Origin: Pedobacter cryoconitis
GTDB lineage: Bacteria > Bacteroidota > Bacteroidia > Sphingobacteriales > Sphingobacteriaceae
Length of the DNA stretch: 64,000 bases
Direction: 5' to 3'
NCBI RefSeq assembly: GCF_014200595.1
Contig: NZ_JACHCG010000001.1
Span: 1,364,001-1,428,000 of the forward strand
Part shown: positions 24,020 to 36,252 of the stretch, piece by piece
Position numbering within the stretch: the first letter of the stretch is position 1
Layout: each line of letters begins with the position of its first letter
Position numbers and translations under genes: made by a program
The notes under the pieces: generated by a model
What the model saw: only the letters and a program-made list of their open reading frames with translations
Databases searched by the model: none
What the model was told of the DNA's origin: nothing

Positions 24020-24349
24020 ATGAAAAACTGGGAAGATTTAAAGAATATTTTGGTGGAATTCAGGAATGAGAGGGATTGGGAGCAGTTTCATAATCCTAAA
24101 GATTTAGCTTTAGCACTATCTATAGAAGTGTCTGAGTTAAATGAACTTTTTCTATGGAAGAAATCGGAAGAAGCGGATGTAGAGAAAATCAAAGATGAAT
24201 TAGCTGATGTATTTGCGTATGCGATATTGCTTGCTGAAAAGTACAATCTGGATATTAACGAAATCGTTTCCAACAAAGTTCTAAAAAACGCAGAGAAATA
24301 TCCTGTAGCTAAAGCTAAAGGAACATCTAAAAAATATAACGAACTATGA
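24020..24349 (+). CDS. MazG-like nucleotide pyrophosphohydrolase
   Basis: A 109-residue all-helical protein of the MazG/RS21-C6 type: FHNPKDLALALSIEVSELNE with the EVSEL metal-binding glutamates, then KDELADVFAYAILLAEKYN with the second E..D pair. Such enzymes hydrolyse (d)NTPs to monophosphates. ATG follows an AAGG at short distance. Its stop overlaps the next start (ATGA, 24346-24349), so it is tightly coupled to the DUF2075 helicase. MazG-like enzymes beside Schlafen-type helicases are seen in defence islands, where nucleotide depletion is a proposed role. Confidence 0.88.
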   Translation: MKNWEDLKNILVEFRNERDWEQFHNPKDLALALSIEVSELNELFLWKKSEEADVEKIKDELADVFAYAILLAEKYNLDINEIVSNKVLKNAEKYPVAKAKGTSKKYNEL

Positions 24350-26256
24350 GGTTATACGCTGGTTCGTCAACAAACTTCATAGCACTTAATGTAAATAATC
24401 AAATTGCAGGTTTATTGGAGACTGAATTCTTAAAGCAATTTGGCTACAAAGCACAAATTAATGAGGTCATGTCGTGGAGGAATTCTCTTTTTCGCCTGTC
24501 TGATATATTAGAGCGTGCAAATCTTACTGATCAGGGTATAATGGTCGAATACAAGCTCCCTTTAAGTGGAAAGCGTATTGATGTGATCATTTGTGGTAAA
24601 GACAAAGATCAAAAACGGAATGCTGTAATTATCGAACTCAAACAATGGGAGAAATGCGCATTAACAGATTACGATAGTGATTACGTCGTAACTTGGGTAG
24701 GAGGAGGTAATAGATCTGTATTACATCCAAGCGTACAGGTAGGTAATTATATGTATTACCTACAGGATAATAGTACGGTGTTCTATGACGGTGACCATCC
24801 AGTAGGACTTTCAGCCTGTAGTTATCTCCATAATTATACGATTGGCAATGAAGATGTACTTACTGATATACGTTTTCAAAAAAGTATTACTCGTTTTCCA
24901 ATTTATTCATCAGAAGATAGATTGGCATTGACTTCGTTCATTACTGATAAGGTAGATCAAGGCGATGGAATGGATATCCTGGCCGAGATAGAGCAGAGTC
25001 GTATGCGCCCCTCTAAAAAATTGTTGAAGCAAGTATCTACTGTCATTAAGAAAAAGCTTAAAGGTGAATTAAAAATATTTGGGGCAGTTAAAACTAAAGG
25101 TGACTACATACTTCTTGATGAGCAGTTGATTGTTTACGATACTGTAATGAGTATTGTACGCAAAGGTTTAGAGCATAAACAAAAACATGCAATTATTGTA
25201 AAGGGAGGTGGAGGTACTGGAAAGTCTGTTATTGGCTTACAGTTGTTAGCTGATCTTGCAGCATTAAACTTCAATACTCAATATGCAACAGGTTCTAAGG
25301 CTTTTACAGAGACTTTGCGTAAAATACTTGGTGATAACTCAAAGAGCTTACTAAAGTACTTTATGTCTTATGGTGAGGCCAAACCTAATGAAATTGATGT
25401 ATTGTTGATGGATGAGGCACATCGGATCAGAGAGAAAACAGGTTATCCATTTAAGTCTACGGGCAGACCACAGGTTCAAGATCTATTGAATGCGGCCAAA
25501 GTATCAGTGTTCTTTATAGATGATTATCAGGCGGTACGTAAAGGTGAGATAGGATCTTCTGCTTTTATAAAAGAACAAGCGGAGCTGGCTGGTTGTAAAG
25601 TTTATGAATACGATCTGGAAGCACAGTTTCGTAATGGGGGTTCTGAACGGTATAGTGATTGGATTGATCATACTTTGCATATCCGAAAAACTGCCACTAC
25701 AGAATGGATTAATGAATCGGACTTTGAATTTACTATTATGGATTCTCCTGAAGCTTTAGAGGCAGCTATAAGAGCTAGAGCTGAAGAAGGTTATACGGCA
25801 AGAGTAATGGCTGGTTTTTGTTGGCCATGGTCAAAACGACTTGATGAGAATAATGATTTAATTAATGATGTCGAGATAGGGGAATATAAACGGCCATGGA
25901 ATGCTCAGGAAGGTTTGACAGGGATGCGTAAGGGAATTCCTAAATCACAGTTCTGGGCTTATGACGCTGGAGGCATTGATCAGGTTGGATGTGTTTATAC
26001 TGCTCAGGGCTTTGAATTCGATTATGCGGGGATAATCTTTGGGAAAGATCTAAAGTATAATCCAGATACCGCTGAATGGGAGGGAGTTCCGGGGAATAGC
26101 TATGATGGCCAGGTTAAGAGTAGTCAGGATTTCCTTCAGCTAGTTAAGAATACTTACCGGGTTCTTTTAGGGCGTGGAATGAAGGCTTGTTATGTTTGTT
26201 TTATGGATAAGGATACTGAGAGGTATTTTAGGAGTAGAGTAAGGAAGAATAATTAA
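24346..26256 (+). CDS. DUF2075 (Schlafen group 3-like) helicase with nuclease-like N-terminus
   Basis: A 636-residue P-loop protein. Walker A is GGGGTGKS at about 287-294 and Walker B is LLMDEAHR at about 353-360; a glutamine-rich helicase motif lies at DDYQAVRKGE, and QFRNGG and YTAQGFEFD are later superfamily 1 motifs. The N-terminal 130 residues hold a PD-(D/E)XK-like pattern: Asp79 in RIDVII and Glu97-x-Lys99 in IIELKQW. It probably unwinds and cuts nucleic acid. Coupled to the MazG-like gene upstream and 5 bp from a membrane protein downstream, a three-gene unit typical of defence islands. Confidence 0.88.
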   Translation: MRLYAGSSTNFIALNVNNQIAGLLETEFLKQFGYKAQINEVMSWRNSLFRLSDILERANLTDQGIMVEYKLPLSGKRIDVIICGKDKDQKRNAVIIELKQWEKCALTDYDSDYVVTWVGGGNRSVLHPSVQVGNYMYYLQDNSTVFYDGDHPVGLSACSYLHNYTIGNEDVLTDIRFQKSITRFPIYSSEDRLALTSFITDKVDQGDGMDILAEIEQSRMRPSKKLLKQVSTVIKKKLKGELKIFGAVKTKGDYILLDEQLIVYDTVMSIVRKGLEHKQKHAIIVKGGGGTGKSVIGLQLLADLAALNFNTQYATGSKAFTETLRKILGDNSKSLLKYFMSYGEAKPNEIDVLLMDEAHRIREKTGYPFKSTGRPQVQDLLNAAKVSVFFIDDYQAVRKGEIGSSAFIKEQAELAGCKVYEYDLEAQFRNGGSERYSDWIDHTLHIRKTATTEWINESDFEFTIMDSPEALEAAIRARAEEGYTARVMAGFCWPWSKRLDENNDLINDVEIGEYKRPWNAQEGLTGMRKGIPKSQFWAYDAGGIDQVGCVYTAQGFEFDYAGIIFGKDLKYNPDTAEWEGVPGNSYDGQVKSSQDFLQLVKNTYRVLLGRGMKACYVCFMDKDTERYFRSRVRKNN

Positions 26257-26261
26257 ATATT

Positions 26262-26996
26262 ATGGAATTAATAGAAGAACTCTTAAATAATACCTTTTAC
26301 CACAGAGTAACAAAAAAATATTCTTCAAGTGCTAGAAGAATGTCCAATATACTTCTTCCTCTGACGTTATTTTGTTTTGCTATGTTTATTGCTCTAATCG
26401 CTTTGAATAATCAATTTTTAGCAGGTGGTATCTTTTTTCTTGCATTTTTAGTTTTTCTACTACTTTTAACGTTTCTCCATGATAAGGAAAAGATTAGAAT
26501 TATTGAAGGTAGCCCTGATATAGCTTCAATAATAATAAAAAAGGCGAAGTGGTATTCCTTTGAAACCTATGATATAGCGAAATTTAACAAGATAATGAAG
26601 GGACTAACTTCAAATTGCCTTCGAGATGGGAATGGGACAATTGTTATGAGTTTGGTAGAAATGTTAATTGTTGAACTAAAAGAGACTAATGAGAGGTTTG
26701 TGAAAAAATACGTAGCGTTTGGAGTTATTTTGGCTTTTTTAGTGAATCCTATGTATGGTATTTACTCTCAAAAATATGTGAATTTGGCTTTTTCTTTTCC
26801 ACCAGTTCTTGGCATGGTTATGCACGTATTTGGAATATTCTTTGTCCTTTATATTACCTATTTCCTAGTCAATACTAAAGAAGTTTATTTGGGATTTACT
26901 AAAGACTACTATTCAAGGTTAAGATTAATAGAACAACTTTATAATATAAAAGCAGATAACCTTCTTAATTCAAAAAGAACACCTGCAAATACTTAG
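26262..26996 (+). CDS. Membrane protein of the MazG-DUF2075 unit
   Basis: A 244-residue protein with two pairs of transmembrane helices (about residues 29-47 with 51-71, and 150-165 with 178-203), separated by a soluble helical domain of some 75 residues. I do not recognise the family. It starts 5 bp after the DUF2075 stop and is surely cotranscribed. In defence systems such a membrane component may be an effector that disturbs the envelope, but here that is only a suggestion from position. Confidence 0.6.
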   Translation: MELIEELLNNTFYHRVTKKYSSSARRMSNILLPLTLFCFAMFIALIALNNQFLAGGIFFLAFLVFLLLLTFLHDKEKIRIIEGSPDIASIIIKKAKWYSFETYDIAKFNKIMKGLTSNCLRDGNGTIVMSLVEMLIVELKETNERFVKKYVAFGVILAFLVNPMYGIYSQKYVNLAFSFPPVLGMVMHVFGIFFVLYITYFLVNTKEVYLGFTKDYYSRLRLIEQLYNIKADNLLNSKRTPANT

Positions 26997-27108
26997 ATAA
27001 GCAGATTTTAATAGCAAGATAATTTAGTGTTATAATTAATGGAATTGAGGGTGACGCCCTAATTTAAAGTGTTATTCGTTTTTTTTGCAAAAACTTTTTT
27101 GATATTAT

Positions 27109-28170
27109 TTATAACATATAATGGAATCCATTATTCGCAGCAATAGTTATCAAAGGATGAATATTATCCTTAAACTTATCTTTAAGATCTTCTTTATTTA
27201 GAGTGTTCAATAATGATAAATCAGGTAGGATTGTTAAATAGTCTTGAAGTAATTTATTCTTAGGAGAATGGCTAAACACAGTTTTCAAAGCCAATTCTTG
27301 AAGATCAAAGTAATCGTCAAAATATTTGTCGAAAACAGGAAGTTTATCCGATTTGCTACAATTGAATCCTTTGTCCGCAGGAATTAAGTTCCAGATCAAA
27401 TCGTGTGACACAAATGCAAATGGTACAAAGTGGTCAATAGCGTATTCATTAATATTGAGAAGGTTCTTCGTATATATACACTTTACCGGGCCAGTTCGTT
27501 CAATTACAATATCCCAAAACTCCTTTCTAGGTTTTAACAGGCTATTTCTATGAGGTGGTTTAAATAACTTGTTTGCAATATCCGGTACGTTAGGATTACG
27601 CTTTTGTACATAAAGACATAAGTGCCAATAGCAGAATGCTTTTAAGATTCCGCTATTTTCAGTCAAATATGTTATCCATTTAGGATTGATAATTACCGAA
27701 TGTTCATCTACAGCATATATACAATCGTTAGCAAACAACTGAGATGATTTATAAATATCCTGTTTATTCCCTTTTATACTACTAAACCAAGGGCTCAGAA
27801 AGCGGTAAGGTACCTCTCCATCAAAATGTCTTAAAGTTTTAATTGTCTCTTTTATATCAGAGGATACTAGCTTTTGAACGATCTTATCTTTTTTCTCATC
27901 TATACCAAGTCCTTCTAATTTGATTATTAGCTTAATCGCATTTTGGAACTGATCTTGTACGCCAAAAGATAGATTGAAATAGTTAACAGTATACCAGGCA
28001 TTTGCAACCATCCTGGCAAAAAGCGACTGTTTATCAATTATATGATTACCTTTTTCAATTGATTCAATAATTGAAAAAAACCAGTAAAACTTATAGGTGG
28101 CTACGGTATTCTTAAAACAAGAAGATAGAATGTGAATGGGTAGAGTCTTATCAGCAGGGAGATTATTCAT
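27109..28170 (-). CDS. HNH nuclease-domain protein
   Basis: A 353-residue protein with an HNH-type nuclease motif near residues 232-280: CIYTKNLL, AIDHFVPFAF with the first His, IWNLIPADKGFN with the central Asn, and KSDKLP. The N-terminal 200 residues are helical and not recognised; they may recognise DNA or another partner. This type is frequent in defence islands. It faces the membrane protein gene tail to tail and is the first of two minus-strand nuclease genes. Confidence 0.75.
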   Translation of the reverse strand: MNNLPADKTLPIHILSSCFKNTVATYKFYWFFSIIESIEKGNHIIDKQSLFARMVANAWYTVNYFNLSFGVQDQFQNAIKLIIKLEGLGIDEKKDKIVQKLVSSDIKETIKTLRHFDGEVPYRFLSPWFSSIKGNKQDIYKSSQLFANDCIYAVDEHSVIINPKWITYLTENSGILKAFCYWHLCLYVQKRNPNVPDIANKLFKPPHRNSLLKPRKEFWDIVIERTGPVKCIYTKNLLNINEYAIDHFVPFAFVSHDLIWNLIPADKGFNCSKSDKLPVFDKYFDDYFDLQELALKTVFSHSPKNKLLQDYLTILPDLSLLNTLNKEDLKDKFKDNIHPLITIAANNGFHYML

Positions 28171-28356
28171 TAAAATGTAAAGGGTTAGTGCTAATTTGTG
28201 AATGTAATCAAAATTTTAGTCTTGATTAAAATTTAAACTCTTCATTATCTTGATATTTATCTTTTGGTATAATTTAATAATTTCCAGAATTGAATCAAAT
28301 ATTACGATGGCCTTAATGGGAGCTAAATGGGGAAGTCTAGATGGTAATTAGTAGAT

Positions 28357-29301
28357 TCAATTTTGGTTTCTAATAAGTAATTTAAATGCATTTAAATTAC
28401 TGGGGTCTTCTGTACGGTGAATCATTCTGTGACAATTAGAGCACAAAACGACAAAGTCCTTTTTTGCGTCGAGTTTTACTATTTCTTCAGTAAGTTGGGA
28501 TATAGGTTTTAGGTGATGTGCTTCAATAAAGTCCTTCCCCAACACTCCATATTTGTCGGCAAAATCTAGGTTACAAGCTTTGCAGATAAAACCTTGTGCT
28601 TTTTTTACTTTTTTTATTAGTGTTTGATTTCTTTCTATCCTTTTATGTTGTCTGTATTTTTTTCTTTCATCTCCTTGGTAGTTATTGTTTTCATGGTCTT
28701 CTTCTTGGGTCTCTATTTCATCATGTACAAATATCAATGATTTATATATTTCCAAAATTTCTGATATATCTTGTTTGAAAATATCCTCTGAAGGAAGGTT
28801 AGTGCTGGAATAAAATTTTGCAATTATATTACCTGCTTCATAATCCCTTGATAAACCAATTTTGGTGGTTTCTAGATTCCTTAATTTAATATCTATGTCA
28901 GAAAAATTATTAGAAATATTACCTAATTGTGCTCTGAATTTTTTTGCATTAATTTTAAGAATATTAAGTGTTTCTTTTTTGTTTTCTTGTCTTATCGTTG
29001 TAACGCCCTGATTAAGGGTTAAATAAAAGCCAGACATGTCATCTCTAAATATGAAAACAGGATAAAATCCTTCTTGCGCAGTTATTGTAATGAAGATATC
29101 AAAGATAGCTATCCATGGCGTAGCGGTCCACCGGCCCTTTCCTGAAGAGGAAGCTACAAGGTACCTCTCATCATTATTAACAATCTTTTTTAATTCATTT
29201 TTTAGTTCATCATTTATAAAGCGAGCTAATTGATTATTCTTGAGTGGTTTTTTACTTTCTTCACTATATTGTGAAATTATTCTTTGAAATAAATCTTTCA
29301 T
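28357..29301 (-). CDS. McrB-N (DUF3578) plus HNH endonuclease, type IV restriction-like
   Basis: A 314-residue protein with an N-terminal DUF3578/MrcB-N domain (about residues 20-185; RWTATPWIAIF and GFYLTLNQGV are diagnostic) and a C-terminal HNH domain (CKACNLDF, FIEAHHLKPI, FVVLCSNCHRMIHR). This is the architecture of ScoMcrA-like enzymes, which cut modified DNA (methylated or phosphorothioated) recognised by other domains. A basic coiled-coil-like linker lies between. Intact. It probably works alone as a modification-dependent nuclease. Confidence 0.88.
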   Translation of the reverse strand: MKDLFQRIISQYSEESKKPLKNNQLARFINDELKNELKKIVNNDERYLVASSSGKGRWTATPWIAIFDIFITITAQEGFYPVFIFRDDMSGFYLTLNQGVTTIRQENKKETLNILKINAKKFRAQLGNISNNFSDIDIKLRNLETTKIGLSRDYEAGNIIAKFYSSTNLPSEDIFKQDISEILEIYKSLIFVHDEIETQEEDHENNNYQGDERKKYRQHKRIERNQTLIKKVKKAQGFICKACNLDFADKYGVLGKDFIEAHHLKPISQLTEEIVKLDAKKDFVVLCSNCHRMIHRTEDPSNLNAFKLLIRNQN

Positions 29302-29440
29302 TATAATTTTTAGATAATTGATTAATTTATGTAAAAATTATCAAAATTATGCTGGGCTATGTGTTTTTTTGAGATTTAAAAATTAAGTGATTGATGGTTA
29401 GTATTATTTATAAAATAAATTAGATTTAAATTTTAAATAT

Positions 29441-30549
29441 ATGATTGCAAATGATGTCGCTAAGGTTAGACATCTTCTTGGGATTTCAGGAGGAAAGGAT
29501 AGTACTGCCTTAGCTATTTATATGAAAAGCTTGTATCCTTCTATTGATCTTGAATTTTATACTTGCGATACAGGGAAGGAGTTGGATGAGACTTACTTGT
29601 TGATTATGAGGTTGGAGTCCAAAATTGGAGTTAAGATTAACAAACTTTATCCTAATATTATTAGTGATAATAATCCTTTTGACTTCTATAATTCTTTGTA
29701 TGGAGGATATCTGCCATCAGCTAATGCAAGGTGGTGTACGAAAAAATTAAAAATTTAGCCATTCGAAAATTATATAGGTACAGCACCAGTAATTTCTTAC
29801 GTAGGAATTCGGGAAGATGAGGATAGGGAGGGTTATATTTCTACTAGACCAAATGTACAATCTATATTTCCTTTTCGGCAGAATATATGGAGTGATTTCT
29901 TACTAACCGTTGTGTTTAAGAATTCTAATATACCATCGTTAGTAAGGTTATATCGTGAGATCCTACTAAGTCGTCGTTCGATGAAATCCAATTTATTATT
30001 AATAAGCCTTTGTCGGTTTCCTTTAATCAAAGTTTAAAGATTAAAGAATTGATGAAATATGGGGTTAAGGAATTTAATACGGTTGTATTTGAAAGCTTAA
30101 AAAAAACAGATCTTCCCTTTGCGTTATTGACTGAGTTTCCTCTAATAAATAATGAAGACAACCTTATTAAGGAGGATATTATTAGGATACTTAAGGAAAG
30201 TGGTATAGGAATACCAGCTTACTATAATGAAATTGAGTATACTGTAAATGGTAAAGTGGGAAAATATAATCGTAGTAGATCTGGTTGTTTTTTTTGCTTC
30301 TTCCAAAAGAAAATAGAATGGGTATGGTTATACGAGCAGAATCCAGCGAAATTTTTTCAAGCTATGGCTTACGAAAAAGATGGGTATACATGGATGAAAG
30401 ATGAAAAACTTGAAGAACTAATAGCTCCTAATCGTTTAAATGAAATCAAGGAAAAGTTCTTAATTCAACAAAAGGATAGTAAAGAGAATAGAACGACACT
30501 TAAATTAGATTTTGATGATCAAGAAGGATGTGCTGCCTGTTTTATTTAA
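29441..30549 (+). pseudogene. PAPS-reductase-like PP-loop protein, broken twice
   Basis: The full span would encode about 369 residues, the usual length of PAPS-reductase-family proteins in defence islands. The N-terminal frame has the PP-loop GISGGKDSTAL and WCTKKLKI, then a TAG at 29756 (a CAG-to-TAG change would restore it). The frame continues PFENYIGTAPVISYVGIRED to about 29960, where a one-base shift moves into the frame ending at 30549 (SGCFFCFF, CAACFI). These proteins use ATP pyrophosphatase chemistry, and DndC is the best known example, for DNA sulfur modification. It is very unlikely to work here. Confidence 0.8.
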
Positions 30550-30609
30550 TGAAGTAGGATTAGATTATTTAACTAGTATAAATGATTAATAATATACTGG
30601 ATATTTCTT

Positions 30610-31269
30610 TTATTTGAAATCTAATTCCATTTGTAGAATGTCTTTATAATGCCCATTCTCTTTACTTGACATAAACTTCCATATGCTGTAATCCATAGTA
30701 GATCTTGGTATTTTTAAGAAATCTGCTGCATATTCAACAATTTTTTTTGTGGAATGATAACCAGTCGTTGTGATTTCTGCCATCTCTACAAAAGAATAGA
30801 TATGTCTGTCAACTGCAACAGTGTCAAAATTTAATAATTTTAATGTATAGTCAATTGTTTTTGGTCCAATACCATTGAGTTTAAGAAGTTTTTCTTGGTT
30901 TTTAACATTCAAAAGAAAAATTTTGAAGTCTAAACAAGTATTAATATTATTTTCAAATGCAAAGTCAACTAATCTTTTTAACCTATCAATTTTGATATGA
31001 TTTTTCCATTTAATTATATTTTCCAAACTATGATTATCTATTAGATTTTGGAACTTATATGTCGTATCGGCTTCGGAATATTTTAATAGAATATGTTGGA
31101 CTCTTGGCTTAACAACGGTGTTATAATTAAGTCCTGCCTGTAATGTGATATCAACGAAAAGAGCACCAATATGATTATAGCAAAACCCAGTCTCAACATA
31201 GAATGTTTCAAAAGATTTCAAGTTATTTATATAGTTAGCTAATTTCCTAGCCTCGAGTACTATTTTCAT
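30610..31269 (-). CDS. OGG-like HhH-GPD DNA glycosylase
   Basis: A 219-residue protein with a helix-hairpin-helix GPD glycosylase core: KLLKLNGIGPKTIDYTLKL followed by DTVAVDRHIYSF. The catalytic Lys137 and Asp154 of the OGG1/MutY superfamily are both present, so base excision is plausible. The N-terminal half is not recognised. It is the last gene of a four-gene operon, 8 bp after the QueC-like gene. OGG-like proteins accompany QueC-like proteins in type IV CBASS (Cap11 beside Cap9), which is the main clue to its role. Confidence 0.8.
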   Translation of the reverse strand: MKIVLEARKLANYINNLKSFETFYVETGFCYNHIGALFVDITLQAGLNYNTVVKPRVQHILLKYSEADTTYKFQNLIDNHSLENIIKWKNHIKIDRLKRLVDFAFENNINTCLDFKIFLLNVKNQEKLLKLNGIGPKTIDYTLKLLNFDTVAVDRHIYSFVEMAEITTTGYHSTKKIVEYAADFLKIPRSTMDYSIWKFMSSKENGHYKDILQMELDFK

Positions 31270-31277
31270 AATAAAAA

Positions 31278-31907
31278 TTATTCTTGTTCGATTTTTCTAA
31301 ATGCATCTAACCTATCAACACAATTAGGACAAGCGCCACATGGAATAATAGGAGATGCCTGACATGAAAAGGTTGAACCTATTGATGCACCCAAATCTAT
31401 ACCTAATTTTGCTACTTCATACTTCGAAAAATGTCTGAAAGGCATATTGATTTTAACTGATCCATAGTCAATTAGCATATCTTCCATTTTGTCGAAAAAT
31501 TCATTTGAACAATCTATTTCTTTAGCATGATTACTATTAATAAATGCGGAATAAACATTTGATAGGCCCATAGTTTGCGCAAATGTAGCACCAATTGTTA
31601 ATAATAGTACATTTCTATAAGGAATATATAAATCATCAGCAACAATTTCTTCATTCCATAAATCTACTGGCTTAATGAATTTTGACTTTGATTTTGCATA
31701 TACGGATCTGATATCAATATATTCTATTCTATTAAGATGAGATTTGGGTATTACATTTTTTAGTGTTTGGAATTCGGTATTTGCACAATGTTGACCATAA
31801 TTTATGAAAAGTGGTACAAAGTCTATGTCGTTATCTATTAGCCAATAAGCCATTGTAGTAGAGTCAAGTCCGCCTGAAGCTAATAATACTCCATTCTTAT
31901 TTTTCAT
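31278..31907 (-). CDS. QueC-like 7-cyano-7-deazaguanine synthase
   Basis: A 209-residue QueC-family PP-loop enzyme. The ATP-binding SGGLDS is at residues 11-16, FINYGQ follows, and the zinc cysteines are Cys182, 190, 193 and 196 (PCGACPNC). True QueC turns 7-carboxy-7-deazaguanine into preQ0. Here no queD, queE or queF is nearby and the gene sits among defence genes, overlapping the upstream gene by 11 bp. QueC-like proteins in defence (Cap9, QatC) are thought to act on proteins or nucleotides. I infer such a specialised role. Confidence 0.88.
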   Translation of the reverse strand: MKNKNGVLLASGGLDSTTMAYWLIDNDIDFVPLFINYGQHCANTEFQTLKNVIPKSHLNRIEYIDIRSVYAKSKSKFIKPVDLWNEEIVADDLYIPYRNVLLLTIGATFAQTMGLSNVYSAFINSNHAKEIDCSNEFFDKMEDMLIDYGSVKINMPFRHFSKYEVAKLGIDLGASIGSTFSCQASPIIPCGACPNCVDRLDAFRKIEQE

Positions 31908-33222
31908 TTGAGTTGAATTTGGAACTTAGATTGAAAATTTCTGAAATAATCAAGTCCATGTCATGTGTTATTAAATGAGGCAGCTCTGTAAGCATACAAT
32001 TTTTAGAAATGCTATATGGGTCATATACAATTGTAGGTATACCTTTAGCTGAGGCTAGGCCAATTTCTATTAAAGTTCCTGGGTCATTAAAAAGTAGTAC
32101 AGCTATTAGAATAGAACAATTATCTAGCAATATCATATCCTTTTGAAATAGTTCTTGTTTGCGGGCCTTTGTTGCTTCTATTTCCATTTGGCCATTCTCC
32201 AAAACTGGTCTACGAGGAGAAAAATTATGATATTTTAGGCTTTTAGATAAAGTATCAATATGAGTTGTATCTATATAACTGAAATCAGGGGCTGCTATAT
32301 AAATGTTAATTTCTTTTCTCCTTTCCCAAGGAATAGATGCTCCTAAGATATTTACTAAGTCTTTCACATTCGATTTTAAGACACGATTAACATCTCTTTT
32401 AAAATCATCTGGATATGTTGTTTGGGCATATTCAGAAGCGACCCATGAAGATAAAACTAGAGATTCTTGATTGCTTAAGTGTTTATTGTTTACTACGAAA
32501 CATGCATCGAAAACATCGCCTACGCCGACTGAATGTTTTATAGGGCTTAATTGTGCTGATGCTGAAAATGCTTCCTGAATTGCGAAATCAAAGCCTCTAC
32601 TACCACCTCTATTCTCCTTTAGTATTACTTTTTCTGTGTGTTTTTTAAATGTCTCAGTAAATTCTTTAAAACTATCATTAAAATACTTATGAAAGATAGT
32701 TGACGATGTAGAAACAAATATTGTATTTAACTTTTTATTCAGGGCACTAAAAAATGTAAGATCTTCTATATTATTAGCTACATCAATATGGATATTACCA
32801 GTTAATCCATTTATTATTTTAATTTGATCATAATTTCCTGATATTAATAAGATATCGTCATATTGATTTTCGAAGATTTTATCTAACATTTCTAGATCAT
32901 AATTGATCTTTACTTCATCTCGTAATAAAAATTCATATCCTTGATTTCCAATTTCCTTTACATCTTCAATTAAAAATACATATGGAGCACCAATTACATC
33001 ACCAAGTTTAAATACTTCCGAACAACCGTGGCCGACTAAAAAATGACTTATTTGATCATTTAGGAAACTAGGTGAAAAATATCCTACGGAATAAGGAATG
33101 TTAAGTGCCCATAAACTTCTAGCGGCATGAACTATACCTCCTAGTCTTAGTTTAAGATTACTAGTCTGAGATTTCAGTGTGACGTCTATGACAATGTCAC
33201 CAATTAATAACACTTTCGACAT
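31897..33222 (-). CDS. PfkB-family kinase fused to nucleoside 2-deoxyribosyltransferase
   Basis: A 441-residue fusion. Residues 1-290 are a PfkB/ribokinase-type kinase: LIGDIVIDV start, RLGGIVHAA, and the catalytic SVGVGDVFDACF with Asp236. Residues 305-430 are a nucleoside 2-deoxyribosyltransferase: NIYIAAPDFS, LLDNCSILIA and DPGTLIEIGLA with catalytic Glu386. The pairing suggests handling of a nucleoside or base, by phosphorylating a (deoxy)nucleoside and exchanging its base. It lies 4 bp after the small Gly-leading protein gene and overlaps the QueC-like gene. I know of no characterised protein with this fusion. Confidence 0.85.
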   Translation of the reverse strand: MSKVLLIGDIVIDVTLKSQTSNLKLRLGGIVHAARSLWALNIPYSVGYFSPSFLNDQISHFLVGHGCSEVFKLGDVIGAPYVFLIEDVKEIGNQGYEFLLRDEVKINYDLEMLDKIFENQYDDILLISGNYDQIKIINGLTGNIHIDVANNIEDLTFFSALNKKLNTIFVSTSSTIFHKYFNDSFKEFTETFKKHTEKVILKENRGGSRGFDFAIQEAFSASAQLSPIKHSVGVGDVFDACFVVNNKHLSNQESLVLSSWVASEYAQTTYPDDFKRDVNRVLKSNVKDLVNILGASIPWERRKEINIYIAAPDFSYIDTTHIDTLSKSLKYHNFSPRRPVLENGQMEIEATKARKQELFQKDMILLDNCSILIAVLLFNDPGTLIEIGLASAKGIPTIVYDPYSISKNCMLTELPHLITHDMDLIISEIFNLSSKFNSNEK

Positions 33223-33226
33223 ATAT

Positions 33227-33601
33227 TTATACTGGAATAATATCCACCGAAATACTCGGAGTTGGTGTCATCCTAGAGTCTGATATAACACCACTGAAGC
33301 TAAAACCATCTTCTAAGCATAATTTGAGATAGTTAAATTTAGTAGGCAAATACCCGACTTCTTCTCCTTTTGTCGTTTTAATAGATAACCTATAACCATT
33401 AAAGAAAACTAAAACTTCAGAGCCGGTAGACGGTACTTTTTTGTACTTTAAATAGTATGTACATCTACTTATTTCTTCTAGGTTAGCCGAAAAAGCTGTT
33501 CCACATTTATCGATTCCACTAGTCCCTCCATTATTTTTTTCCTCATTAGTTGGTTTTTTATTAGGATAATCTGTAAACGAGCCTGAGCCTGTACTTCCCA
33601 T
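33227..33601 (-). CDS. Small protein starting Met-Gly-Ser-Thr-Gly, first gene of the QueC operon
   Basis: A 124-residue protein. The start MGSTGSGSFTDYPNKK is the notable part: after Met removal a Gly-Ser N-terminus followed by a flexible Gly/Ser/Asn linker of about 40 residues, then a compact beta-rich domain (CGTAFSANLEEISRC, VLVFFNGYRLSI, EVGYLPTKFNYLKLCL, PSISVDIIPV). The frame extends upstream to 33685, but ATG 33601 gives this clean glycine terminus and the 28 extra residues look non-coding. QatB proteins, partners of QueC-like QatC, also begin with a Met-Gly segment. I infer it may be the substrate of the QueC-like enzyme. Confidence 0.65.
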   Translation of the reverse strand: MGSTGSGSFTDYPNKKPTNEEKNNGGTSGIDKCGTAFSANLEEISRCTYYLKYKKVPSTGSEVLVFFNGYRLSIKTTKGEEVGYLPTKFNYLKLCLEDGFSFSGVISDSRMTPTPSISVDIIPV

Positions 33602-34317
33602 ATTGTATATGTTTAAATTATTAAATGATAATACTGAAACAAAACCTTTAAAATTATAAAAACACAAAATAAGCTTGAGCGTCAATTTAGTGTTTGTAGA
33701 AGTAATCTGGATTCTAATATCAATATTAAATTAAATTATTCCTAATATTATGTTTATATATTTCATGAATTAATTATGATCTTTCATTTTAATTTATGTT
33801 TTATTTATATGGTAAAATTCACTCATTTTACTCTGATTAGGCCCTATTATTTACAATTTTATTTATGAATAGAAATTTGACCTTACCCAATTTTTTCGAC
33901 TTTTCAGCGGTCTGGTTTTCCGGGGGGAGGTCAAACCATGAATATAAGCTGAAATCATTCTAAGTTATCACGAGGGTATAGGAGCAAAAATTCCTTAGTT
34001 ACCATTGATAGCTTTAGTAAATGGTTTTCAATTAAGGAAAAAGCTAATTTAATTGGATTGAAAGGAAGGTTTTCTTACTTTTATTAATGAGATATATTTT
34101 ATGTTTTCATAGGATCCAATATTTTTAACTCGTCCCTCTCTTATAGTGATAAGTGAAATTCTTTAAGCAAATTTGCAAAAATCAATATTTATAAAGGTTA
34201 ATTGTATAAGTAATATGGGTTAAAATATTAGTTTTACAAAAAAATAATTAAATTTTAAGGATATTAGTTTTAGATCTTAATATCCTTAAAAGGAAAGCTT
34301 GCAAATATCAATTTTAT
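33602..34317. other. 716-bp AT-rich gap between divergent operons
   Basis: No gene is supported. It must contain promoters for the QueC operon (leftward) and the DUF262 gene (rightward). One GC-rich island at about 33906-33935 stands out; TTTGACCT (33876-33883) and AGGTCAAA (33928-33935) form an 8-bp inverted repeat with pairing that can extend into the C-run and G-run. The rest looks like neutral, poly-A/T-rich sequence. Confidence 0.35.
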
Positions 34318-36252
34318 ATGCCCTCAATTAAACAAGAACTGACTGTCTTAGGTTCTAAGACTTTTAACCTGAAGGAACTCTTTACAAACAATTATTTTAT
34401 TATTCCTGACTACCAGCGAGGTTATTCTTGGGAAACTGAACATCTTGAAGATCTAACTAAGGATATACTTAATATTACAAAGATAGATGGCAAGCACTAT
34501 ACAGGGACTATCGTTGCAGCAATTAATGAATCTAGGTCAAATACATACGAGCTTGTTGATGGACAACAACGCCTTACCACTTTAATAATTTTCTTAAATG
34601 AAATATATCATTATGACCGTAATGAATTCAAAGATATTTATCCCATTTTTATTTCACGAGGAACGAAAGGCAATGAGCGGAACGTATTGACACCTAATAT
34701 AGAAACAAGGAAATGTTTCCAATATGCGATTATCCAACACCAGGATTTTAATGCTGAAACTAAATCCCATGAATCGATAATTAATGCATCAAAATATTTC
34801 AAGGAATTTTTGAGAAAAGATGATGTTGATCCAAGTGTAATTTACAATACGATTTTGACAAAGCTTAATTTCCTATTCTTTACTCCTGAACAAAATCGGG
34901 AAATCGGGATTATGTTTGAAGTAATAAATAACCGGGGTAAACAGCTCTCGGAACTAGAAAAAATAAAAAACTTTTTTATTTACTATGCCACGGTTCATAG
35001 TAGAGAGAGGTTAAGAAAAGAAATAAACTTAAGATGGTCCGATATACAAATCAGTCTTAGTAAGGCACATCGAACAAGTAATGATGATGAAAATGCATTT
35101 TTAAGATATTGTTTTGTTGTTTTCTTTAAAACCAGTAAAGATAAGAGTTGGTATGTTTATGATGAATGTAAGGAGCTTTTCAACGTAAAAGATTGTAATG
35201 AAGATTATATTGATAATGCTGTTGACAGAATGCGTGATTTTGTGGAATTTGTTGCGCTTTCAGCTAAGCATTATTCTTGGTTTTTTAATGGAGACCAATT
35301 TGATATTGTATATAATGGAGAATTTAAAACTGAATTAACCCGTTGTTTAACTTACCTCCGTTCTCAGCCAACTTATGCTTCGATTATGCCTTTGTATCTG
35401 TCAATCATGTCCAGGTTGGATATTCCACATCAGGTCGTTAGATTATTAAAGCTTTTAGAAGTTGTTAATATGAGACTTTATGTTTTACCAGATATTTTCA
35501 GGAGAGCTGATAGTAAACAAGCTGATATGTTTGAGTTTGCATGGGAATTCTTCAATGATCGAAATTGGAATTCTGAGAATGATCCTGCAATAACTTACTA
35601 TAATCAAGTTGCAATAAAAGGTGATATCTTTGAATGGCTTTTTGAAAATCTTGTGCAGATTACCGATGCTTTCTGTCCAGAAAACCGGTTTATAGATAAT
35701 TTAGAATTAGACTATGGAGAAAGCTTCAACTATTATCGTTGGATTGGAATTAGGTATTTTCTTTCATGTTACGAGGAACATACTCGCTCACAAAAAGCTA
35801 AACGTTCTTTTGAATGGAAAAGATTGCTAACAGGAAAGAAGAATATAGGACACAATAAAAATGACCAATTATCTATTGAACATATTTGGGCTTCAAAAAA
35901 CATGGAAGCGGAGTTTCCATCTGATTTTCATACTAAAAGGAGGTTAGGTAACTTTGTTCTTTGTGGACTTAGTAGCAATATCAGCTTAAGCAACAAGAAT
36001 ATTCCAGATAAAATTGCTGAGTTGGAAAAACAGAATGGTGCGGGGGAGGGTGCTTTGGATATGATCCAGGTTGCGGAACTGAGTAAAATCTTTAGGTTGG
36101 TTTATAATGAAATGGCACAAAGACGTAAGACGAAAAATTATTGGAGAGAAATGGCTGATAAGATTTGTGAACAGCGGGAAGAGGTATTTAAAAAGTTTGC
36201 TTTAGACCGTTGGAGACTTCCAAATGAAAAAACAACTGAAATTAATGATTAA
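34318..36252 (+). CDS. DUF262/DUF1524 protein, GmrSD-type restriction nuclease
   Basis: A 644-residue single-chain GmrSD-like protein. The DUF262 domain is N-terminal: FIIPDYQRGYSWE at about 27-39 and the DGQQR motif at 81-85 (ParB/Srx-like NTP use). The C-terminal DUF1524 domain has an HNH-like His in LSIEHIWASKN (His522) and the RRLGNFVLCGL...NISLSN block. GmrSD enzymes cut glucosylated or hydroxymethylated phage DNA using NTP energy. Intact and unlinked to other genes; a type IV restriction role is likely. Confidence 0.88.
   Translation: MPSIKQELTVLGSKTFNLKELFTNNYFIIPDYQRGYSWETEHLEDLTKDILNITKIDGKHYTGTIVAAINESRSNTYELVDGQQRLTTLIIFLNEIYHYDRNEFKDIYPIFISRGTKGNERNVLTPNIETRKCFQYAIIQHQDFNAETKSHESIINASKYFKEFLRKDDVDPSVIYNTILTKLNFLFFTPEQNREIGIMFEVINNRGKQLSELEKIKNFFIYYATVHSRERLRKEINLRWSDIQISLSKAHRTSNDDENAFLRYCFVVFFKTSKDKSWYVYDECKELFNVKDCNEDYIDNAVDRMRDFVEFVALSAKHYSWFFNGDQFDIVYNGEFKTELTRCLTYLRSQPTYASIMPLYLSIMSRLDIPHQVVRLLKLLEVVNMRLYVLPDIFRRADSKQADMFEFAWEFFNDRNWNSENDPAITYYNQVAIKGDIFEWLFENLVQITDAFCPENRFIDNLELDYGESFNYYRWIGIRYFLSCYEEHTRSQKAKRSFEWKRLLTGKKNIGHNKNDQLSIEHIWASKNMEAEFPSDFHTKRRLGNFVLCGLSSNISLSNKNIPDKIAELEKQNGAGEGALDMIQVAELSKIFRLVYNEMAQRRKTKNYWREMADKICEQREEVFKKFALDRWRLPNEKTTEIND

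Follow-up and report, generated by a model that had tools for sequence, protein, structure and literature searches.

A four-gene Pedobacter operon with a QueC-like enzyme and a glycine-tailed small protein as a candidate immune system

Introduction

The joining of a nucleobase to a protein has been reported for type IV of the cyclic oligonucleotide-based antiphage signalling systems (CBASS) and proposed for the Qat system, whose chemistry its authors leave open (PMC13279940). The type IV CBASS enzyme Cap9 is reported to link 7-carboxy-7-deazaguanine (CDG) to the glycine at the N-terminus of its partner protein, and QatB depends on the glycine of its MGTS start (PMC13279940; PMC11996544). The base itself is recognised by Y115 and D117 of Cap9 (PMC13279940). 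Here we describe an operon of Pedobacter cryoconitis that appears to combine the same kind of enzyme with a different partner. It lies in a stretch of 64,000 nucleotides (contig NZ_JACHCG010000001.1, positions 1,364,001 to 1,428,000), hereafter the window, and consists of four minus-strand genes at 30610-33601. These encode, in this order, a small protein, a fusion of a PfkB/ribokinase-fold kinase and a nucleoside 2-deoxyribosyltransferase (PfkB-NDT), a QueC-like enzyme and a predicted glycosylase resembling 8-oxoguanine DNA glycosylase (OGG). On balance we favour the view that this is an immune operon working on the type IV CBASS/Qat principle, in which the QueC-like enzyme would tag Gly2 of the small protein with a guanine-like base.

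One pairing within the operon has a published counterpart. The adjacency of QueC and PfkB-NDT genes is in print for Cluster 4 of the PF06508 family, where it is interpreted as probably serving purine salvage; searching that text for 'OGG' and 'glycosylase' gives no hit (PMC13329287). This precedent was absent from the first-pass annotation of the window, as was the predicted HIRAN-like nature of the small protein. A literature search, with bioRxiv-only and most subscription papers outside its coverage, returned no recognised account of the four-gene set.

A fixed four-gene unit

The genes are tightly packed, with a gap of 4 bp between the small protein and the fusion, an overlap of 11 bp between the fusion and the QueC-like gene and a gap of 8 bp before the OGG-like gene, in agreement with the arrangement first read from the sequence. 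The idea that the four genes belong together is likewise borne out by their distribution. Loci were collected by a pattern scan with the fusion alone, which favours fusions keeping two motifs, and with one genome taken per species this yielded 32. All four genes lie on one strand and in constant order in 31 of them, with median spacings of -4, -8 and 0 bp from the first gene to the fourth. Since these loci were chosen by the fusion alone and yet carry the complete ordered set, the association is not a product of chance. The exception, L012, has a QueC frame that stops early, after 11305, shortly before the contig itself finishes, and the interrupting sequence reads as that of a putative insertion-sequence transposase. 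The hosts comprise Bacteroidota, Lachnospiraceae and other Clostridia, Alphaproteobacteria, Gammaproteobacteria (Idiomarina), Cloacimonadota and TM6.

Some carriers are mobile or virus-like. In a plasmid collection the small protein and the near-full-length fusion match the identical four records, and the four genes are complete in the three of these that were examined, from Cupriavidus, Neotabrizicola and a chromosome-sized Proteus record. Four contigs of a viral collection all contain the small protein and the fusion, and three also contain the QueC-like and OGG-like genes, the fourth contig stopping just past the fusion. Phage structural genes are found near the operon on two of these contigs (a portal gene on L043, terminase and portal genes on L044); three proteins scanned from the remaining two gave no PHROG match, and phage records yielded no fusion match covering over 80% of its length. 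The operon is also rare. When at most 11 candidates were scored per genome, the small protein was found in 2 of 395 genomes sampled from the phylum, namely the window's own genome and that of L004, where the four genes are intact. The operon is probably self-contained and horizontally spread. At three clostridial loci (L028, L029 and L034) elongation-factor-like genes, named from their translations, lie upstream near the operon and perhaps mark a common insertion site.

The surroundings are rich in defence genes. For 20 operons the closest large neighbouring proteins, 136 in number, match 234 PADLOC families at 1e-10, against 7 families for 129 control proteins around QueD in the same genomes, although these figures count families rather than proteins and are inflated, one AAA protein alone accounting for 71 families at 1e-4. 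The contrast is large despite this inflation. The comparison covers 20 of the 25 QueD-bearing genomes (G011, G015, G018, G021 and G029 and the eight QueD-less hosts were left out), and the controls, of which 133 were picked and the four longest dropped, represent QueD neighbourhoods rather than random loci. In 5 of the 32 loci (L003, L004, L005, L007 and L010) the operon is immediately preceded, on its own strand, by an ATPase-like gene and a PIN-like gene, a pair that is possibly an optional effector and for which the Pfam scan covered the L004 copy. Because the neighbours are rich in defence genes and the carriers are mobile, a role in defence fits, and there is a strong case that the four genes form one functional unit tied to it.

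The small protein

The small protein starts with MGSxGxG in all 33 aligned rows, across phyla, followed by a variable linker. M1, G2, S3, G5, G7 and Y12 are invariant in these rows, and mean column entropy is 0.45 bit for residues 1-7 versus 2.29 for residues 13-32. The codons differ at the invariant glycines. This alignment was gathered via the fusion and hence without the bias of a second collection, drawn from database searches by shared five-residue words, which favours the conserved tail. In that collection 116 of 121 homologues begin with MGSxGxG among the matches listed (120 of the 422 found in one search). A variable N-terminus, which by the first-pass annotation would have refuted its reading, was therefore not observed. 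By analogy with the partners of Cap9 and QatC, and given this conservation, the small protein is a good candidate for the acceptor of the QueC-like enzyme. Three pairs of small proteins (P0014/P0202, P0025/P0203 and P0172/P0210) come from contigs of equal length; one member of each has the usual start and the other a start like MGSSGSS or MGSSGGS, which suggests two acceptors per locus.

The body of the protein is predicted to adopt a HIRAN fold, as judged by fold comparison of its model. The corresponding sequence match to PF08797 (HIRAN) is weak, since 7 of 30 members show one with E no higher than 1, the best being 0.0035, and the small protein of the window has no Pfam match. Sequence searches of the PDB with small-protein profiles gave best values of 0.03 and 0.0075, which were judged to be chance.

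The three enzymes

The QueC-like protein matches PF06508 with 116.1 bits (gathering score 22, E 2e-33) and the PADLOC QueC model at 1.5e-25, the latter being a family-level match that is not specific for Cap9. Against the PDB its profile finds Cap9 at 1.1e-16, slightly better than E. coli QueC at 1.9e-15, and the NCBI QatC model scores 11.7 bits against a cut-off of 280 (E 0.088). The SGGxDST and YxQH motifs, the arginine of the RN loop and the zinc cysteines C182, C190, C193 and C196 are kept in 28 of 28 rows. In a 35-row motif table, from which the interrupted L012 is omitted, the base-reading loop is always KEIDC, the canonical YPDC being absent, and the equivalent of Cap9 D117 is always retained as Asp132. 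In a tree of 57 QueC rows, none of them Cap9, the window type forms one clade (100/100) separate from Cluster 4 and the haloarchaea (100/99); long branches meet in this tree, and the points where canonical QueC joins are weak. Canonical queuosine synthesis was set aside as a function. The protein scores 90.2 bits with TIGR00364, the NCBI QueC model, below the cut-off of 150.3, its loop is KEIDC, and the available contigs show no match to QueD or QueE closer than 10 kb to the operon, although many genomes are fragmented, contig breaks may hide some matches and queF was not searched. Within these bounds, the linkage to queuosine genes that the first-pass annotation had named as a refuting observation was not found.

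In the fusion, the transferase half is recognised by PF05014 (Nuc_deoxyrib_tr) with 48.4 bits (cut-off 28.8, E 1.2e-12) and finds the N-deoxyribosyltransferase 6evs in the PDB at 8.9e-5. The kinase half is not recognised by Pfam but has a predicted ribokinase/PfkB fold with the catalytic Asp of GxGD present; since the VIA rows in the fold search of the fusion model were taken by the kinase domain, this fold result refers to the kinase half. Asp236 of the kinase and Glu386 of the transferase are found in all 36 fusion proteins of the window type. No Pfam glycosylase family exceeds its cut-off in the OGG-like protein, and its family profile (28 members, the number of rows also held by the QueC-like alignment) leads to OGG-type glycosylases in the PDB, with 9o00 at 1.2e-6. 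Lys137 of the helix-hairpin-helix (HhH) and Asp154 of the GPD motif are present in 32 of 32 proteins, and from the family match and these residues the protein is predicted to be a HhH-GPD glycosylase. The identities and intact catalytic residues given to these enzymes at first pass are consistent with all of these results.

Enzymes of the NDT and PfkB families are known to include salvage enzymes, so that the operon might be read as an ordinary pathway for purines or deazaguanines. This is the published reading of the adjacency of QueC and PfkB-NDT in Cluster 4 (PMC13329287). We regard it as very improbable for the window operon, which is rare, is carried by plasmids and phage-like contigs, has defence genes as neighbours and encodes a QueC-like protein scoring below the NCBI cut-off. 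Salvage would moreover leave unexplained why a HIRAN-like protein has an invariant tail and why a glycosylase is a constant partner.

Sister types

Related loci were found via a distant PfkB-NDT protein, by a plasmid search and a survey of one class of genomes, in which 2 of 369 genomes were positive. The Cluster 4 type contains a small protein, PfkB-NDT and QueC, and its zinc motif is CH(x)5CxxCxGCxK in 8 of 8 proteins; in the other motif given for Cluster 4, YGQ(x)6E, the spacer counts as five residues in the rows examined. A small protein is present in 12 of 12 loci (L036, L037, L040, L041, L042, L047-L051, L053 and L060), its gene being absent from the gene table in L037 (5000-5371), L040 and L053 (4603-4998), and its domain is homologous to that of the window type (hhalign E 5.6e-8). 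The genes for an OGG-like protein, a dGTPase, a Mrr-like nuclease, a nitroreductase-family protein, a Dam-type methylase and a Vut transporter variously occur near these loci.

Some of these neighbours bear on a different explanation, namely that the operon is a hypermodification island in which the QueC-like enzyme makes a free base, NDT and the kinase turn it into a deoxynucleotide and the OGG-like enzyme removes it, the small protein being a mere DNA-end adaptor whose glycine tail binds something else. A transporter gene of the Vut/YhhQ type follows QueC at about 0.7 kb in two related loci, the near-copies L037 and L040, and a gene for dGTPase overlaps that for QueC in one sister locus and is separated from it by some genes in a second; all three enzyme folds, moreover, act on bases or nucleosides. 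Against this, the four core genes include no base-inserting enzyme of the tRNA-guanine transglycosylase (TGT) or DpdA type, the tail is better conserved than the rest of the small protein, and a similar tail is found on an unrelated TIR domain, as described below. Hypermodification is therefore unlikely, though it keeps a real minority chance of being correct.

The haloarchaeal plasmid type has a glycine-rich start of the small protein in 3 of 3 loci; at L052 (4372-5007) the acceptor-like protein seemingly has two repeats of the folded domain. The rhizobial plasmid type is represented by L055, L057, L058 and L059, with L055/L058 and L057/L059 as close pairs, and comprises a PfkB protein, a TIR-TGT protein, OGG, QueC and a ThsB-like TIR protein. 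The last starts with MGGG in all four loci, that is, in two pairs of close copies, and Pfam ThsB_TIR was found in the three such proteins scanned. The TGT domain is supported by PADLOC for L055 (1.8e-22) and by Pfam over its cut-off for L057. In the two rhizobial PfkB proteins scanned Pfam finds PfkB and no NDT. The alignment is unsure at the position of Glu386, where 2 of the 4 rhizobial proteins have E but the surrounding DPGT motif is lost. The base-reading loop is constant within each sister type, with HxDG in 8/8 of Cluster 4, HADG in 3/3 of the haloarchaeal and FPDQ in 4/4 of the rhizobial proteins. The common core of the types is QueC, a PfkB-type protein and a glycine-tailed partner; NDT and TGT, which are both base-exchange enzymes, may be interchangeable among them, and the four-gene operon seems to be part of a wider family of cassettes.

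The rhizobial proteins without a recognisable NDT also speak against a further scenario, in which, whether or not the small protein is modified, PfkB-NDT and the glycosylase would serve as the weapon by destroying deoxynucleosides or DNA once infection is sensed. The invariant catalytic residues of these enzymes and the gene for dGTPase, a defence protein listed by PADLOC, that overlaps QueC in one sister locus are compatible with such nucleotide depletion. As the four genes also include no obvious control switch, we consider it quite unlikely.

Proposed mechanism

Methionine aminopeptidase removes Met before Gly, and by this general rule it would first expose Gly2 of the small protein. The QueC-like enzyme would then adenylate a guanine-like base at its carboxyl group and join it to Gly2 rather than to ammonia, the base being probably a 7-deazaguanine acid or closely related to one. 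This step is suggested by the chemistry of the family, by the retention of Asp132 and by the invariance of the tail and of the ATP and zinc motifs. Their folds and invariant catalytic residues suggest that in a third step PfkB-NDT may act on the base or nucleoside, by glycosidic base exchange and phosphorylation, and that the OGG-like enzyme may excise a base from DNA. Together they would supply, extend or remove the modification, thereby standing in for Cap10 (TGT-like) and Cap11 (OGG-like) of type IV CBASS. Finally, the predicted fold of the HIRAN-like domain suggests that, as in HLTF, it may carry the tagged protein to the ends of DNA, for instance of phage DNA undergoing replication.

A more elaborate version of Gly2 tagging can be imagined, in which a protein-nucleotide is built. 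After attachment of the base to Gly2, NDT would add deoxyribose, the kinase would add a 5'-phosphate and HIRAN would place the resulting deoxynucleotide at DNA 3' ends, while the OGG-like enzyme would read or undo the link or recover the base from phage DNA that carries modifications. QueC, NDT or TGT, and OGG would then form an interchangeable toolkit that arms tailed CD-NTase, HIRAN and TIR proteins. We hold this elaboration to be doubtful.

Several observations weigh against Gly2 tagging as set out above, in addition to the inflated neighbour counts. In all 35 window-type proteins Glu130 replaces the base-stacking Tyr found in Cap9 and QueC, so the substrate may not be CDG. Matches to QueD and QueE are present in 25 of 33 hosts, where QueE was scored with TIGR04508, whose cut-off is passed by 1 of the 25 genomes, and G029 has a weak QueD match (25.6 bits against a cut-off of 22.4). 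The other eight hosts, one complete genome (AP018536.1) and seven drafts or metagenome-assembled genomes, are without both matches. Cluster 4-type small proteins start with MSG in 11 of 12 cases, which means that a glycine at position 2 is not universal, and 3 of 11 sister small proteins match Pfam PUA_4 (best 2.2e-4), not HIRAN. The PADLOC OGG match of the window glycosylase is weak (6.5e-4). To our knowledge, finally, import of CDG has no precedent.

On the origin of the base, all eight hosts without QueD and QueE encode TGT, six the importer QueT and two the importer Vut_1, which makes import of a queuosine precursor plausible there. Their KEIDC loop is unchanged, which speaks for one substrate in all hosts. 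A second PF06508 match of at least 180 bits is present in 8 of the 33 hosts. The base could be salvaged, or taken from DNA via the OGG-like enzyme, or other than CDG. Because the stacking Tyr is Glu and eight hosts are without QueD and QueE matches, deazaguanine is less sure as the attached base than the broader term guanine-like base. The interpretation offered by the first-pass annotation stands in part: co-occurrence, the invariant tail and the defence context support it, and its deazaguanine component is the part that has weakened.

If Gly2 is tagged as proposed, the operon would be a third nucleobase-protein conjugation system, with a very small acceptor. The two sugar-processing activities encoded beside it predict possible events after attachment of the base. 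The Cluster 4, haloarchaeal and rhizobial TIR types point to a general module in which the acceptor can be exchanged, and they provide an alternative, open to testing, to the published assignment to purine salvage.

Features of the locus

The coordinates of the genes and domains are collected in Table 1. In the surrounding region, 24346-36252, Pfam and PADLOC identify a Schlafen-group helicase protein, an HNH_4 protein, an MrcB_N-HNH protein and a GmrSD nuclease. A gene related to the phosphoadenosine phosphosulphate (PAPS) reductase-like SspD/DndC lies beside the operon in two frames, 29441-29758 and 30010-30549 (+), which match the PADLOC SspD profile over 1-91 and 133-248; because it is split in this way it looks broken in the window genome.

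Table 1. Genes and domains of the operon, in window positions
Feature	Length or residues	Positions	Strand	Remarks
Small protein	124 aa	33227..33601	-	Tail MGSTGSGSFTDY, disordered linker, HIRAN-like domain (predicted); proposed acceptor
Conserved tail of small protein	codons 1-12	33566..33601	-	Gly2 proposed acceptor residue after removal of Met1
HIRAN-like domain of small protein (predicted)	33-124	33230..33505	-	C33 and C95 invariant
PfkB/ribokinase-fold kinase and nucleoside 2-deoxyribosyltransferase fusion	441 aa	31897..33222	-	PF05014, ribokinase fold, D236, E386
Kinase domain of fusion	~1-293	32344..33222	-	GVGD motif with Asp236
Deoxyribosyltransferase domain of fusion	307-401	32020..32304	-	Glu386; PF05014
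QueC-like ATP-dependent enzyme	209 aa	31278..31907	-	SGGLDST, YGQH...E, YIPYRN, KEIDC, four zinc cysteines
OGG-like HhH-GPD glycosylase/lyase (predicted)	219 aa	30610..31269	-	Lys137, Asp154-Arg-His

Comparison with known systems

With type IV CBASS the operon shares a QueC-like enzyme, an OGG-like glycosylase (by the weak PADLOC match), the defence context and a partner with an exposed N-terminal glycine, which starts MGGS there and MGSTGSG here. Cap11 of type IV CBASS is itself OGG-like, and PADLOC holds OGG, QueC and TGT models side by side. The operon differs from type IV CBASS in its HIRAN-like acceptor, its PfkB-NDT fusion and the Glu that takes the place of the stacking Tyr of Cap9. No CD-NTase was found among the four genes and six neighbours at 24346-36252 (PADLOC, E up to 0.01), and the window proteins scanned gave no match to TGT (Cap10-like), which was seen at such loci only in the rhizobial sister type.

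With qatABCD the operon has in common a QueC-family enzyme and a partner with a conserved N-terminal MG motif and a disordered tail. In contrast to the HIRAN-like acceptor QatB is helical, and QatC is about 400 aa long with extensions whereas the QueC-like enzyme has 209 aa. The ten window proteins scanned include neither QatA (KAP NTPase) nor QatD (TatD nuclease), in keeping with the first-pass statement that these and CD-NTase are missing nearby.

The Cluster 4 type resembles the window operon in that its QueC-like gene adjoins a PfkB-NDT fusion and that a homologous small protein accompanies both. It belongs to a separate QueC clade, has its own zinc motif in place of the C(x)7CxxCxxC of the window type, and starts its small protein with MSG instead of MGS, its glycosylase lying elsewhere or non-adjacent. 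The HIRAN domains of HLTF and Rad5 share the predicted fold of the small protein's body, which differs from them in being stand-alone, in its glycine-rich tail and in its weak sequence match. As the proteins scanned yielded no CD-NTase, QatA or QatD, the operon lies outside type IV CBASS and Qat, but it probably works like them.

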